Assembly: GCF_002355335.1 (NCBI RefSeq)
Contig: NZ_AP014946.1
Location: forward strand, 2,929,501 to 2,993,500
Direction: 5' to 3'
Source of the DNA: Variibacter gotjawalensis
GTDB lineage: Bacteria > Pseudomonadota > Alphaproteobacteria > Rhizobiales > Xanthobacteraceae
Length of the DNA stretch: 64,000 nucleotides
Part shown: positions 7,744-27,569 of the stretch, in pieces
How the letters are laid out: the number at the start of each line of letters is the position of its first letter
How positions within the stretch are numbered: the first letter of the stretch is position 1
The notes under the pieces: generated by a model
The model's input: the letters and a program-made list of their open reading frames with translations, nothing else
Told to the model about the DNA's origin: nothing
Databases searched by the model: none
Position numbers and translations under genes: made by a program

Positions 7744-8322
7744 TCAAGCTGCGCCACGAAACGGTTTGCTCAAAAACCGCGAGCCGGCGAGCCCGTAACG
7801 CCATGGCAGATCGGCCGCTTTCGTGATCCCGATGCGTACGCCCGTAACGATATCGACGTCGCGGTTGCGCGGCAGAAGACGATAGGGCGCGCGATCAAGC
7901 CGCAGCCCATTGTGCGCGTTCGTGATGCCGAGAGCTGCGCACACCTTGCCGGGACCCGAACACAAGGCGCGCACGTCGTCGGTGCCGCGCCGGTCGATCA
8001 TCGCGTCGATCCCCTCGCTCGGCGCGATCGCACGCAGCAGCACGGCCGACGCGCTGCCTTCCGCCTCGCAGACGAAATTCACGCACCAGTGGATGCCGTA
8101 GGAGCGATAGACATAGGCGTAGCCGGGCGGCCCGAACATCACGGCGTTGCGCGGCGTGAGGCCGTTGAAGGAATGCGCGGCCGGGTCCGTGTGGTGATAC
8201 GCCTCGACCTCGACGATCACGCCGCCGGCGCCGCCGAATAAAAAGGTCGCGCCGATCAGATCGGGCGCGACCTCGTGAACGCTGCGGGCGAAGAAGTCTC
8301 GCCCGAGAACCTTCTGCGGCAT
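7744..8322 (-). CDS. 3-methyladenine DNA glycosylase (AAG/Mpg family)
   Basis: A 192-residue monofunctional glycosylase that removes alkylated purines such as 3-methyladenine in base-excision repair. Family landmarks visible are [18 protein letters not shown] at the N-terminus, the catalytic-Glu region [18 protein letters not shown], the [19 protein letters not shown] segment, and [14 protein letters not shown] in the product-side loop. The start at 8322 gives a TGATG overlap with the stop of the upstream FHA-protease gene, implying translational coupling. An in-frame start seven codons earlier is less likely. Confidence 0.93.
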
Positions 8323-21719: not shown

Positions 21720-23510
21720 ATGACAGCGCCTGCCGCCCATCTGTTTGCCCGCGTTCTAGCCTCCGTTCAGACCGTTTTGCGCGGCCTGAGCGATAGCGGG
21801 CGTCTGCCGGCCGGTCTTGATCTGTCGCGCGTTCTTGTCGAACCGCCGCGCGATGCGACCCATGGCGACATGGCGACCAACGCCGCGATGGTGCTTGCGA
21901 AGGAAGCCAAGCAGAAGCCGCGCGATCTCGCCGAAGCAATCGCCGAAGGTCTGCGCGCCGATCCGATGATCGAGAAGGTCGAGATCGCCGGGCCTGGCTT
22001 CATCAACCTCACGCTGCATCGTGCGTTGTGGCTCGACGAATTGAAGGCCGCGCTCGACGCCGGCGAAAGCTACGGCCGCAGCGGTCTCGGAGCAGGGCGC
22101 AAGGTCAACGTCGAATACGTCTCGGCAAACCCGACCGGCCCGATGCATGTCGGTCACTGCCGCGGCGCCGTGTTCGGCGATGCGCTTGCGACCTTGCTCG
22201 ACGTCACCGGTCACGACGTGACACGCGAATACTACATCAACGATGCCGGCGCGCAGGTCGACGTGCTCGCGCGTTCCGCGTTCCTGCGCTACCGCGAAGC
22301 GCTCGGTGAGACCATCGGCGACATTCCGGAAGGGCTTTACCCCGGCGATTATCTCAAGCCGGTCGGCGAAGCGCTGAAGGCCGAATACGGCGACAAGCTC
22401 CGCAACCAGCCGGAAGCCGAATGGCTGCCGATCGTCCGCGCGAAATCCATCGCCATGATGATGGACATGATCCGCGACGATCTCGCGGCGCTGGGCGTGA
22501 AGCACGACGTCTTCTTCTCGGAGCGCACGCTCGCGGAAGGTAACGGCGGCCAGATCGCCGCGACGATCGACGAGCTGCGCCGCGACGACAAAGTCTACAT
22601 GGGCCGCCTGCCGCCGCCGAAGGGGGCGCCGGTCGACGACTACGAGGATCGCGAGCAGCTCCTGTTCCGCTCGACCCAGCATGGCGACGACGTCGACCGT
22701 CCTCTCGCGAAGTCGGACGGCACCCACACTTATTTCGCCGCCGACATCGCCTACCATCGCTCGAAGTTCGAGCGCGGCTTCTCCGAGATTATCGACGTCT
22801 GGGGCGCCGACCACTTCGGTTACATCAAGCGCATGCAGGCCGCCGTCGCCGCCATCACGGGTGGTAAGGCGACACTGGACGTCAAGATCGTCCAACTGGT
22901 CCGGCTGCTACGCAACGGCGAGCTCGTTCGCATGTCGAAGCGCTCCGGCGACATCGTGACGCTGCGCGAAGTGCTCGACGAAGTCGGCCGCGACGCCGTC
23001 CGCTTCATGATGCTGTACCGGAAAAACGATGCGGTTCTCGACTTCGACCTCGCCAAGGTGATCGAGCAGTCGCGCGACAACCCGGTCTTTTACGTTCAGT
23101 ACGGCCACGCGCGTTGTCAGTCGATTTTCCGCAACGCCGCCTCCGAAGGCGCGAAAGACCTGCCGTCCGACGCTGAAGCGCGGCGGAAGTTTCTTGCCGG
23201 CGCCGCCTTCGATCGCCTTGAGGATGAGGGAGAAATCGGCCTCATCAAGCTGCTCGGCCAATACCCGCGCGTGCTCGAATCGGCGGCCTTGGCGCATGAG
23301 CCGCACCGCGTCGCCTTCTACCTTTACGAATTGGCGACGGCGTTCAACGCCCAATATACACGTGGAAATGCTGCGCCTCATTTACGCTTCATTATCCTAG
23401 ATGATCCAATAATAACGATAGCGAGACTTGCACTCGTGCAGGGGGTCGCTACCGTGCTGGCATCTGGGCTTTCATTGCTCGGGGTTGCGGCACCGGTGGA
23501 GATGCGGTGA
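21720..23510 (+). CDS. argS: Arginine-tRNA ligase
   Basis: A 596-residue class I synthetase charging tRNA-Arg. The HIGH motif is HVGHCRGA in [11 protein letters not shown] near residue 135; a KMSKS-like motif is [13 protein letters not shown] near residue 402, a variant accepted in ArgRS. The N-terminal Add-1 domain and the C-terminal DALR anticodon domain ([17 protein letters not shown], ending PVEMR) are complete. The last ~55 codons use rare codons (several ATA, plus AGA, CTA, TTA), unlike the rest of the gene, although the protein sequence remains family-like. Confidence 0.97.
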
Positions 23511-23592
23511 TCGATCGGTTCCGTCCACGCTGCGTATCGCGTGTGTCGGGTAGGCTAGCCGGGAGATCCTTAAACCGAAGGCAGTGTGTGTT

Positions 23593-24831
23593 ATGGCCAC
23601 CCAGGGCAATCAACGTTTGCAGCAGGATTTCGCGGCAGACCAGGCTTCCGGTAACAAGGACCCGCTCGCAGAGCTGGCGCGCTTGATCGGACAAAACAAC
23701 GGTTACACGAACGTGCGGCAGGCATCTCAGCCCGCCGCCCAGCAGGCCGCTCCCGAGCCGGCCGCTTATGCGCCGCCTCCGGCGCAAACCCGTTACCAGC
23801 AACCGACGCATGATTTGCGCGGCAGCTACGACGCCGGAGCTCAATCGTCGGCCGTCCAGAAATCGGTCGCACCGCGCTACGCGACGCCAGTCGCCGCGAC
23901 GCCGGTCGCAGCCGCTCCGGCTACCGCTCAAGCTCAGCCCGTGCAGCCGCAGCAGTATGCGGATCAGCATTACGCCGACGAGCACTATGCCGAACAGCAT
24001 TACGATCCGGCCTACGACACCGGCTACGACCAGGAATACATCCCGGAAGAGCCGAAGAAGAAGCGCGGCCTGCAACTCGTCGCTGCCGCCGTCGGTCTCT
24101 GCGTGATCGGCGCCGCCGGCGCTTACGCTTATCGCTCGATGGGTCCGACGATCTCGGGTCCGCCGCCGGTCATCAAGGCCAGCGATCAGCCGAACAAGGT
24201 CGCCGGCACGCCGCAGCAGCGCGAGCCGGTTTCGACAACGACTTACAATCGCGCGGGCAACGGCAATCAGCCGGAGCGCATGATGACGCGCGAAGAAACC
24301 CCGATGGACATCAAGGCCGGCACGCAAGCCGCGCCGCGCACCGTCGGCAGCATTCCGGCAGCTCCCGCCGCACAGTCGACCGGCATGACGCCGCCGCCGC
24401 CGGCCGCCGAGCCGAAGAAGGTCAAGACCGAGCGTATCCTGCCGAACGGCCCCGTGACGGGTCCGTCGACCGGCCCGCGTTCGGACACGACGAAGCCGGC
24501 TCCGGTCCGAACCGCTTCGATCGCTCCGGTCGTCGCCGCAACGCCGCCGTCCTCGGCAGCGGTTGCTGCTCCGTCGCCGACCGGCGGTCACGTCGTCCAG
24601 ATCTCGTCGCAGAAGTCGGAAGGCGATGCCAAGTCGTCGTATAAATCGCTGCAGGCGAAGTATCCGTCGGTTCTCGCCGGCAAGTCGCCGCTGATTCGCA
24701 AGGCGGACCTTGGCGAGAAGGGCACCGTCTACCGCGTTCAGTTGGGCCCGTTCGCTTCGGCCACTCAGGCCACAGAACTGTGCACAAACCTGAAGGCTGC
24801 CGGTGGGCAGTGCATTGTCCAGAAGAATTAA
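23593..24831 (+). CDS. SPOR-domain inner-membrane protein
   Basis: A 412-residue protein with a Gln/Ala/Tyr-rich N-terminal cytoplasmic region, one TM helix (LVAAAVGLCVIGAAGAYAY, about residues 158-177), a long Pro/Ala-rich periplasmic linker and a C-terminal SPOR domain (GHVVQISSQKSEGDAKSSYK to CTNLKAAGGQCIVQ). SPOR domains bind denuded septal peptidoglycan, so a role in cell division or envelope remodelling is likely. The neighbouring nagZ fits a peptidoglycan theme. Start at 23593 (MATQGN) is preferred over an in-frame ATG three codons upstream. Located between argS and nagZ, a known alphaproteobacterial order. Confidence 0.9.
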   Translation: MATQGNQRLQQDFAADQASGNKDPLAELARLIGQNNGYTNVRQASQPAAQQAAPEPAAYAPPPAQTRYQQPTHDLRGSYDAGAQSSAVQKSVAPRYATPVAATPVAAAPATAQAQPVQPQQYADQHYADEHYAEQHYDPAYDTGYDQEYIPEEPKKKRGLQLVAAAVGLCVIGAAGAYAYRSMGPTISGPPPVIKASDQPNKVAGTPQQREPVSTTTYNRAGNGNQPERMMTREETPMDIKAGTQAAPRTVGSIPAAPAAQSTGMTPPPPAAEPKKVKTERILPNGPVTGPSTGPRSDTTKPAPVRTASIAPVVAATPPSSAAVAAPSPTGGHVVQISSQKSEGDAKSSYKSLQAKYPSVLAGKSPLIRKADLGEKGTVYRVQLGPFASATQATELCTNLKAAGGQCIVQKN

Positions 24832-24846
24832 GTAACAGCGCCTTGA

Positions 24847-24865
24847 CCCGCGCATGATGCGCGGG
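24847..24865 (+). promoter_or_regulatory. Perfect 9-bp inverted repeat before nagZ
   Basis: cccgcgcat-g-atgcgcggg lies 15 bp after the SPOR gene stop and 13 bp before the nagZ start. The single central base means a real hairpin would open a few inner pairs. It precedes the longer hairpin inside nagZ. Confidence 0.55.
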
Positions 24866-24878
24866 CAATCCGGCAGGT

Positions 24879-25883
24879 ATGCCGCGCGCTTTCATCACCG
24901 GTTGCATCAGTCACGCTCTGACCCCGTCAGAGCGTGACTTTTTGCGTGATACGGACCCGTGGGGTCTGATCCTGTTCAAGCGCAACGTCGAGACTCCCGA
25001 CCAAGTCCGTGCGCTGGTTGACTCTTTTCGCCAAATCGTCGGCCGCGACGACGCTCCGGTCCTGATCGACCAGGAAGGCGGCCGCGTGCAGCGCCTGGGC
25101 CCGCCGCATTGGCCGGCCTATCCGGCCGGCGGGCTCTTCGGCAAACTCCATGCCCTCGACGCGAACGCCGGGCTGACTGCCGCACGTCTCGGTGCGCGCC
25201 TCATCGCGGAAGACTTGGCGGCGCTGGGGATCACGGTCGACTGCCTGCCGGTCGCCGACGTTCCGCAGGCCGGGTCCACGCAGGCGATCGGCAATCGCGC
25301 TTACGGCGAGGATGCCGCGACCGTTGCGGCGATCGCGGGCGCCGTCGCCGAGGGCTTGATGGAGGGCGGTGTGTTGCCGGTCGTGAAGCATATGCCGGGT
25401 CACGGTCGCGCCGTCGTCGATAGTCATGAGAAACTTCCGGTCGTCGAAGCGGACCGCGCGACGCTGTCGGCAACCGATTTCGCTGCGTTCAAGCCCCTCA
25501 ACAATCTGCCGCTCGGCATGACGGGCCATATCGTCTTCACGGACATCGATCCGGACGCTCCGGCGACGCAGTCGAAGACTGTCATCGACGATGTCATCCG
25601 GCGCGAGATCGGCTTCACCGGTGCTCTGATGACGGACGATCTCTCGATGAAGGCGCTGGCGGGCGATTTCGCCGAGCGCACGCGCGCATCGCTGGCGGCC
25701 GGCTGCGACCTCGCGCTCCACTGCAATGGCGACATGGCCGAGATGATCGCTGTCGCGAGTGCGGCGCCGATCCTCGCCGGCGAGGCGCTGCGCCGTACCG
25801 AACTAGCGCTAGACGCGCGCAAAGGCCCGGGGACAATCGATGTGGCGGAAGCGCGAGCGCGCTTTTCCGCTATGATCGGTTAG
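24879..25883 (+). CDS. nagZ: Beta-N-acetylhexosaminidase
   Basis: A 334-residue family 3 glycosidase that releases GlcNAc from anhydromuropeptides during peptidoglycan recycling in the cytoplasm. The diagnostic loop VVKHMPGHGRAVVDSH (KH-x-PGHG, with the catalytic His-Asp dyad region) and the nucleophile region LMTDDLSMKAL are present, as is PVLIDQEGGRVQRLG. The N-terminus (RAFITG, then LTPSERDFLRD, then DPWGLILFKRN) matches the family, so the start is secure. Its codons 11-22 contain a perfect 14-bp inverted repeat with a following T-run. scpA begins 20 bp after its stop. Confidence 0.95.
   Translation: MPRAFITGCISHALTPSERDFLRDTDPWGLILFKRNVETPDQVRALVDSFRQIVGRDDAPVLIDQEGGRVQRLGPPHWPAYPAGGLFGKLHALDANAGLTAARLGARLIAEDLAALGITVDCLPVADVPQAGSTQAIGNRAYGEDAATVAAIAGAVAEGLMEGGVLPVVKHMPGHGRAVVDSHEKLPVVEADRATLSATDFAAFKPLNNLPLGMTGHIVFTDIDPDAPATQSKTVIDDVIRREIGFTGALMTDDLSMKALAGDFAERTRASLAAGCDLALHCNGDMAEMIAVASAAPILAGEALRRTELALDARKGPGTIDVAEARARFSAMIG
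24909..24943 (+). terminator. Terminator-like hairpin inside the nagZ coding sequence
   Basis: agtcacgctctgac (24909-24922), loop ccc, then the exact complement gtcagagcgtgact (24926-24939), followed by a T-run (24939-24943). A perfect 14-bp stem plus U-tract is the canonical shape of an intrinsic terminator on the plus strand, yet it lies at codons 11-22 of nagZ. It may act as an attenuator of nagZ-scpA-scpB or as the terminator of the upstream SPOR gene. Confidence 0.7.
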
Positions 25884-25903
25884 GGCGAATCAGTCAGGTG
25901 AAC

Positions 25904-26797
25904 ATGACTGCTGAAAATGCCTTAACGGCAGAAGAATTTGAGCAGGCGCAGCCTGCTGCGGTAGCCGAGCCCTCTTTGATTGTCGATGTCGAAGGGTTCG
26001 AGGGACCGCTCGACGTGTTGCTCGCGCTGGCGCGGCAGCAGAAGGTCGACCTCGCCAAGATTTCCGTTCTGGCGCTTGCCGAGCAGTATCTGAAATTCGT
26101 CGAGGAAGCCCGCAAGGCGCATCTCGAACTCGCCGCCGATTATCTCGTGATGGCCGCCTGGCTGGCCTATCTCAAATCGCGACTGCTGATCCCGCAGATG
26201 GATACGCCCGGCGACGAACCGAGCGCCGCCGAATTGGCCGCTGCGTTGGCGATCCGCCTGCAACGCTTGGAAGCGATCCGTGCCGCCGCCGTCGCGCTCA
26301 TGGGCCGCCCGCAGCTTGGCCGCGACACCTTCGAGCGTGGCGACCCGGAACCCGTCAACGCCATCAAGCGGCCGGAATATTCGGCGACGCTCTACGATCT
26401 GCTGACCGCGTATTCTGTGCAGCGGCGTAAGACCGCGCTCTCGCGGGTGCGTTTTAAGCCGCGCGACGTGTGGTCGCTGACCGACGCGCGTGAGGCGCTG
26501 AAGCGTCTCGCCGGCATGAAGTCTTACGATTGGCAGCGGCTCGACGATTACCTAATCCAATACGTCGTCGAGCCCGGAATGCGCGCGAGCGTGCTCGCAT
26601 CGAGCTTCGCGGCAAGCCTTGAGCTGGTCCGCGAAGGCGTTCTCGAACTGCACCAGTCGGGATCGTTTCAACCGATCTACCTGCGCGCACCGCGCGTCGG
26701 CCCAAGACCTGTGGAAGACGCGCTGCCAGGCGAACAAGAAAGACCGGGAGAGGAGGGGAATGGCGGCCCCGACACGTCCGGCAATCCAGTACAATAG
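25904..26797 (+). CDS. scpA: Segregation and condensation protein A (kleisin)
   Basis: A 297-residue kleisin subunit of the SMC-ScpAB condensin, needed for chromosome compaction and segregation. The N-terminal helix region (FEGPLDVLLALARQQKVDLA, then ISVLALAEQYLKF) and DYLVMAAWLAYLKSRLLIP are typical; the C-terminal winged helix contains LELVREGVLELHQSGSFQPI. ATG at 25904 has AGGTG directly upstream; the GTG two codons earlier is part of that site. scpB follows after 13 bp, forming an operon, with nagZ immediately upstream. Confidence 0.95.
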   Translation: MTAENALTAEEFEQAQPAAVAEPSLIVDVEGFEGPLDVLLALARQQKVDLAKISVLALAEQYLKFVEEARKAHLELAADYLVMAAWLAYLKSRLLIPQMDTPGDEPSAAELAAALAIRLQRLEAIRAAAVALMGRPQLGRDTFERGDPEPVNAIKRPEYSATLYDLLTAYSVQRRKTALSRVRFKPRDVWSLTDAREALKRLAGMKSYDWQRLDDYLIQYVVEPGMRASVLASSFAASLELVREGVLELHQSGSFQPIYLRAPRVGPRPVEDALPGEQERPGEEGNGGPDTSGNPVQ

Positions 26798-26810
26798 TGA
26801 GGAGGCCTTT

Positions 26811-27569
26811 ATGACCCCAGTCGCAGAACGTCGTTTGCGGATCGCGGTAAGCGAAGGCAATCCGGTGGAAGATTTCGAAGACACACGTGAGCCCGAGACG
26901 GTGGAAGAGCCGGTACAGCGCCCCGAAGAACTGCGCTTGATCGAAGCGTTGCTGTTCGCCGCGAGCGAGCCGCTCGACGAGAAGACGCTCGGCGAGCGTC
27001 TCCCCGACGACACCGACGTCAAGGCAACGCTTCGCGCGCTGCAGACCGAATACGCGCCGCGCGGCGTCAACCTCGTCAGCATCGGCGGCAAGTGGACCTT
27101 CCGCACCGCCAACGATCTCGCGTGGCTGCTGTCGAAGAACATCGTCGAGCCGAAGAAACTGTCGCGCGCTGCGCTCGAGACGCTGGCGATCGTCGCCTAT
27201 CACCAGCCGGTGACCCGCGCCGAGATCGAAGAGATCCGCGGCGTCAACACGTCCAAGGGCACGCTCGACGTGCTGCTGGAGACCGGTTGGGTGCGCCTGC
27301 GTGGCCGCCGCAAGGCGCCGGGGCGTCCGGTCACTTACGGCACGACCGAGAATTTCCTCAGCCAATTCGGCCTCGAGGCGCTCAACGACCTGCCGGGCCT
27401 CGAAGAGCTGAAGGGCGCGGGCCTGCTGGAGGGCGGCCTGCCGGCCGGCTTCTCGGTACCGTCGCCGTCCGACGATCCGGCTTTGCGCGACGACGAGGAC
27501 CCGCTAGAAGACACCCCGGAGCTCGACCTCACCCTCGCGGTGCCGTCGGAGCGTACCGACGAAGAGTAG
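26811..27569 (+). CDS. scpB: Segregation and condensation protein B
   Basis: A 252-residue ScpB with two winged-helix domains that associates with ScpA and SMC. Recognisable segments are LRLIEALLFAASEPLDEKTL, WTFRTANDLAWLL, ALETLAIVAYHQPVTRAEIE and EIRGVNTSKGTLDVLLETGW. The C-terminus is an acidic disordered tail. ATG at 26811 has an ideal AGGAGG at 5-bp spacing. An alternative ATG at 26760 also has a purine-rich site and would overlap scpA; it would add 17 residues. Confidence 0.94.
   Translation: MTPVAERRLRIAVSEGNPVEDFEDTREPETVEEPVQRPEELRLIEALLFAASEPLDEKTLGERLPDDTDVKATLRALQTEYAPRGVNLVSIGGKWTFRTANDLAWLLSKNIVEPKKLSRAALETLAIVAYHQPVTRAEIEEIRGVNTSKGTLDVLLETGWVRLRGRRKAPGRPVTYGTTENFLSQFGLEALNDLPGLEELKGAGLLEGGLPAGFSVPSPSDDPALRDDEDPLEDTPELDLTLAVPSERTDEE

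Follow-up and report, generated by a model that had tools for sequence, protein, structure and literature searches.

Does a perfect hairpin inside the 5' coding region of nagZ, followed at once by a run of T, work as a transcription terminator, or is it an accident of coding and mutation? NagZ takes part in peptidoglycan recycling and is tied to beta-lactamase induction in other bacteria. The hairpin lies in a 64,000-nucleotide stretch of the Variibacter gotjawalensis genome (the window), and its features suggest an intrinsic terminator that is functional yet confined to this lineage. Judging from sequence, we give a probability of slightly over one half to the reading that it partially terminates transcription of the argS-SPOR unit and lowers expression of nagZ and of the two chromosome-segregation genes that follow, scpA and scpB.

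The initial annotation described an exact 14-bp inverted repeat with a 3-nt loop and an immediate T-run, and a direct read of the sequence gives just these parts (Table 1). All 14 pairs of the hairpin (24909-24939) are Watson-Crick and 8 of the 14 are G-C, while the T-run counts four T, or five when the closing A-T pair is open. Hairpin and T-run are contained in nagZ codons 11-22, the stem starting 31 nt into the gene. As an isolated stem it folds with -24.2 kcal/mol (shuffle z = -8.2), and on a d'Aubenton-Carafa-type terminator score it reaches 28.1, within the range of the genome's intergenic terminators, of which 48 score higher and about 80 lie above zero. Intrinsic terminators have 5 or more stem pairs and a loop of 3-8 nt, here 14 pairs and a loop of 3, and a U-tract directly 3' of the stem, which is present here and is short, yet inside the scored range. 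Score, folding energy and T-run thus bear out the terminator shape that had been claimed.

Table 1 Features of the nagZ locus and other genes with coding terminator matches; coordinates are window positions unless a locus is named.
Feature	Coordinates	Strand	Basis
argS, first gene of presumed upstream unit	21720..23510	+	gene call, Pfam
SPOR-domain protein gene, stop 77 nt 5' of stem (24909)	23584..24831	+	gene call, Pfam
8-bp GC-rich hairpin CCCGCGCA-TGA-TGCGCGGG without T-run, SPOR-nagZ gap	24847..24865	+	fold
nagZ, Pfam GH3 N-terminal domain, hairpin-bearing gene	24879..25883	+	gene call, Pfam
5' arm AGTCACGCTCTGAC, nagZ codons 11-15	24909..24922	+	sequence, fold
Loop CCC, 3 nt	24923..24925	+	sequence, fold
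3' arm GTCAGAGCGTGACT	24926..24939	+	sequence, fold
U-tract TTTT (five T including 24939 with open closing pair), then GCG	24940..24943	+	sequence, terminator score
scpA, 14 nt past nagZ, presumed co-transcribed	25898..26797	+	gene call, Pfam
scpB open frame, presumed co-transcribed; actual start probably downstream of the frame's first codon, near 26.8-26.9 kb	26619..27569	+	gene call, Pfam
Methylpurine-DNA glycosylase (MPG) gene	7744..8322		coding match >=20
Holin-like gene, small; F and V codon-rich	L297:2684-3091		coding match >=20

The gene calls are simple codon-usage calls, and their starts are uncertain. For nagZ the start had been taken as fixed by family N-terminal motifs on both sides of the hairpin, and an alignment of 106 relatives agrees: RAFITG, 5' of the hairpin, and LTxxERxFLR..PWG, across and 3' of it, are conserved. 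No alternative in-frame start codon was found upstream of the ATG at 24879. Together with the conservation of RAFITG this rules out a wrong start codon, and because RAFITG secures the start in relatives, the hairpin lies inside the gene, as had been stated.

A perfect stem of this length had also been considered unlikely from codon constraint alone, which proves correct for this gene: a 14-pair stem, given the NagZ protein and this reading of its codons against the stem, has an exact probability of 1e-6, falling to 2e-7 when the TTT codon is included. The source genome is one contig of 4,586,237 bases, of which samples of 0.86 to 2.06 Mb supplied the background rates. When the codons of 649 genes were resampled according to codon usage, 0.067 14-bp hairpins arose per 0.66 Mb of coding DNA (4 in 60 replicates), which extrapolates to about 0.4 coding 14-bp hairpins per whole genome with no T-run demanded. 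In 0.86 Mb scanned for perfect stems, the nagZ stem is the sole perfect 14-bp hairpin in any coding sequence; the other stems of at least 12 bp are intergenic and mostly of the form A5-GC stem-T5, with the exception of one at the 5' end of trmB. The nagZ hairpin is written in codons of below-average frequency (AGT, GCT, TCA, CGT, TTT, TTG; z = -2.9, in the lowest 2% of 12-codon windows). A 14-bp stem alone somewhere in the genome is not impossible; one with an immediate T-run at a gene start is clearly unusual.

The position would suit a terminator of the preceding unit. The stem lies 77-78 nt past the SPOR stop codon, where same-strand intergenic terminators have a median distance of 28 nt from the stop and nine tenths of them fall within 160 nt, and it is the sole plus-strand terminator candidate that the scan found in the window before 36523, within a long co-directional gene run. 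Sense-strand coding matches scoring at least 20 number four in 1.66 Mb (in trmB, nagZ, the holin-like gene and the MPG gene), all starting 20-52 nt into the coding sequence and 46-78 nt past a co-directional stop, against a mean of 0.67 such matches at any position, none of them within 60 nt of a coding start, in 12 codon shuffles of 1.32 Mb. An additional 400 kb (total 2.06 Mb) held no sense-strand coding match of at least 20 anywhere, which neither supports nor refutes a 5'-coding class and leaves the clustering resting on four cases. Among these, nagZ and trmB alone are strong, since a conserved protein motif accounts for the MPG stem and hydrophobic residues make the holin-like gene rich in T. 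The MPG hairpin (8245-8272, minus strand, with TTTTTATT) lies in the early coding region 49 nt past the upstream stop; it was judged to be mostly a product of coding, with a stem that largely derives from the conserved motif VAPDLIGAT and with relatives that carry no T-run. In trmB, GCCCCGCGAGATTTACCGCGGGGC followed by TTTTTTT occupies codons 7-17, 46 nt past the metK stop, and scores 38.8 (L134:2897-2920, with the same site in L237). The same trmB codons in one relative, G023 (L255), hold a different stem followed by TTTTTT with a score of 47.5, the start codon assignment being less certain there.

If the nagZ hairpin is a terminator, RNA polymerase that has transcribed argS-SPOR, or that initiated shortly upstream of nagZ, would transcribe the 14-bp hairpin and pause on UUUUU, and part of the transcripts would be released at about 24943. 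The 3' end of the resulting argS-SPOR mRNA would be stable, and transcription of nagZ-scpA-scpB would be reduced, not abolished; the terminator must be partial or read through, because a strong one would starve ScpAB. Read-through would be mostly a fixed fraction, as the stem is only 31 nt into the gene and a new ribosome would rarely catch the polymerase in time. In E. coli, Li et al. 2015 set the tR2 terminator 30 bp downstream of an AUG, found that translation cut its efficiency by only about 10%, and argued that the first ribosome seldom catches the polymerase within the first 100 bp (PMC4824070). The attenuation of nagZ-scpA-scpB that the initial annotation proposed is supported as likely by the score, position and uniqueness of the hairpin, from which we infer the termination itself, its efficiency and its effect on nagZ-scpAB. 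Against the terminator reading stand a short U-tract (4-5 T, then GCG), a stem of lower GC content than the genome's usual A5-GC stem-T5, and the absence of this stem from the more distant relatives compared, 184 in number.

That absence has to be read with the distance of the relatives in mind. Even the nearest of the 184 are only 60-69% identical in NagZ, the genus is represented by a single genome in the comparison, and the source-genome NagZ stands on its own long, deep branch in the protein tree. Loss of the stem in relatives, which the initial annotation had set as part of its refutation, is seen throughout, but with the 60-69% identity and the single genome it says little on conservation. 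In 106 relatives a mean of 4.15 of the 14 stem pairs is kept (maximum 8), and a kept or covarying stem, as expected of a conserved cis-regulatory RNA, was not seen among them at these identities. Family-wide, the synonymous-structure signal is weak and unspecific (mean z of -0.60 in the hairpin window, -0.78 further in). An intergenic terminator scoring above 25 precedes nagZ in 7 of 184 relatives, so predicted termination at the SPOR-nagZ junction recurs. These seven terminators (L089, L092, L177, L178, L179, L181, L182) are of the ordinary type and lie about 70-130 nt before the nagZ start.

The main rival to the terminator reading, and a serious one, is that the stem is a functionless accident, in which a template switch at a quasi-palindrome copied one arm into the other and the T-run came from F-L codons. 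Template switching can create perfect stems in one event (PMC8794818), and the family motif ALTxxER..FL already codes for a few inner pairs (GCTC/GAGC). The unusual residues are encoded by the left arm: position 11 is Ser here but Gly in 176 of 184 relatives, and His12 is present in 5 of 184. This fits a single event in which the left arm was copied from the right. The stem is also unique to the source genome, where the codon-usage null itself expects a fraction of one such stem when the T-run is ignored. However, a stem that comes with a T-run and sits just inside a gene following an upstream unit is far less frequent, and rare codons occur in the right arm and T-run too (TCA, CGT, TTT, TTG). 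We regard a pure accident as doubtful while giving it real weight; even an accidental hairpin of such form would be expected to terminate somewhat, so that this reading and the terminator reading differ on selection more than on chemistry.

Translation of nagZ had further been suggested to control read-through: strong ribosome loading would open the stem and let the polymerase pass, whereas poor loading would terminate nagZ-scpA-scpB. The geometry permits this, as the stem begins at codon 11 and would be within reach once a ribosome had advanced to about codon 6. The nagZ start codon lies within a small hairpin in the minimum-energy fold, and its Shine-Dalgarno-like sequence is a poor one. Yet the E. 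coli terminator at a similar position lost little to translation (PMC4824070), and the minimum-energy and centroid folds of 24812-24960 contain the terminator form alone, with no antiterminator. No leader peptide, pause signal or antiterminator pairing was identified, and nothing near the Rfam threshold was found at the hairpin, which speaks against a known RNA family. Since neither an antiterminator fold nor a leader peptide nor a known RNA family was found, this part of the earlier proposal is possible but weaker, and we hold ribosome-controlled read-through to be decidedly improbable. A hairpin serving mRNA stability or translation at the nagZ start, with no termination, would find company in relatives: start-straddling hairpins of at least 8 bp occur in 12 of 184 nagZ relatives and in 3 of 1394 source-genome genes, a lead rather than a test as the species are related, and the Ancylobacter group has stems of 9-10 bp in nagZ codons 17-24. 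But these stems are placed elsewhere, mostly lack a T-run and are common by descent, with few independent cases, and such a function has no need of the T-run in nagZ; we think it very unlikely. The perfect symmetry could also suggest a DNA operator or a dispersed palindromic element inserted in nagZ, an idea we find scarcely credible: with up to 3 mismatches allowed, no second copy exists in the source genome and none in 390 other family genomes, which also rules out a REP-like dispersed repeat, and the protein alignment contains no insertion.

Compared with known systems, the nagZ hairpin resembles a canonical intrinsic (Rho-independent) terminator: the stem is stable and contains G+C, the loop has 3 nt, a U-run follows at once, the terminator score is positive, and the site is just past an upstream unit. 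It differs in lying wholly inside the coding sequence of the next gene and in lacking the flanking A-run and high-GC core that are usual in the source genome. The closest match in position is the lambda tR2 construct W48 of Li et al. 2015 (PMC4824070), likewise a hairpin that follows an AUG by about 30 bp and stands past an upstream gene, although that construct is synthetic and measured in E. coli, whereas the nagZ hairpin is natural and predicted. Attenuators of the pyrBI and amino-acid leader type, and the 5' terminators of Naville and Gautheret 2010 (PMC2965389), have in common with the predicted nagZ element that transcription stops early, at the 5' end of one part of an operon, but the nagZ hairpin sits in the structural gene itself, and neither a separate leader peptide nor an antiterminator was found for it. 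Among the 3' ends that Adams et al. 2021 mapped in E. coli are ORF-internal ones, early or internal and some of them intrinsic, with only about a fifth of the listed ends scored as consistent with intrinsic termination (PMC7815308); in contrast to those ends, the nagZ site is predicted from sequence.

If the hairpin is functional, a hairpin in coding sequence would keep nagZ and both condensin subunits, ScpA and ScpB, below the argS-SPOR level, one that annotation pipelines searching intergenic DNA only would miss and that would be a natural counterpart of the terminator position tried in the synthetic construct. A wider proposal, which we think rather unlikely, is that this lineage repeatedly places terminators in the first ~20 codons of the downstream gene, as in nagZ after SPOR and trmB after metK; selection on the upstream 3' end would then reshape the N-terminal codons of the next gene, even turning the near-invariant Gly11 into Ser, and would set the expression ratio at the junction.

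Several other hairpins were observed along the way. In Microvirga, L058, L032/L038 and L194 a hairpin straddles the nagZ start and is followed by TTTATT or TTTCATT. The Microvirga version (L045, L049, L052, L054, L055, L059, L062, L066, L070) has the start codon in or beside the loop and a 3' arm that codes for RA, with TTTATT or TTCATT next in most species; it is possibly a start-codon-sequestering or terminator element. The Ancylobacter group stems (L034, L192, L208, L213, L223) are perfect and show an apparent paired change from CAG/CTG to GAG/CTC between species. In another genus (G014, L007), nagZ codons 13-22 contain an 11-bp hairpin, GAAAATCGCGC-CCGCAGA-GCGCGATTTTC, at the same place in a different register. 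Finally, a near-identical intergenic palindrome, CGTCATGGCCCGG..CCGGGCCATGACG, occurs at two distant sites (L113:12948-12982 and L148:4550-4580) and is probably a dispersed repeat.
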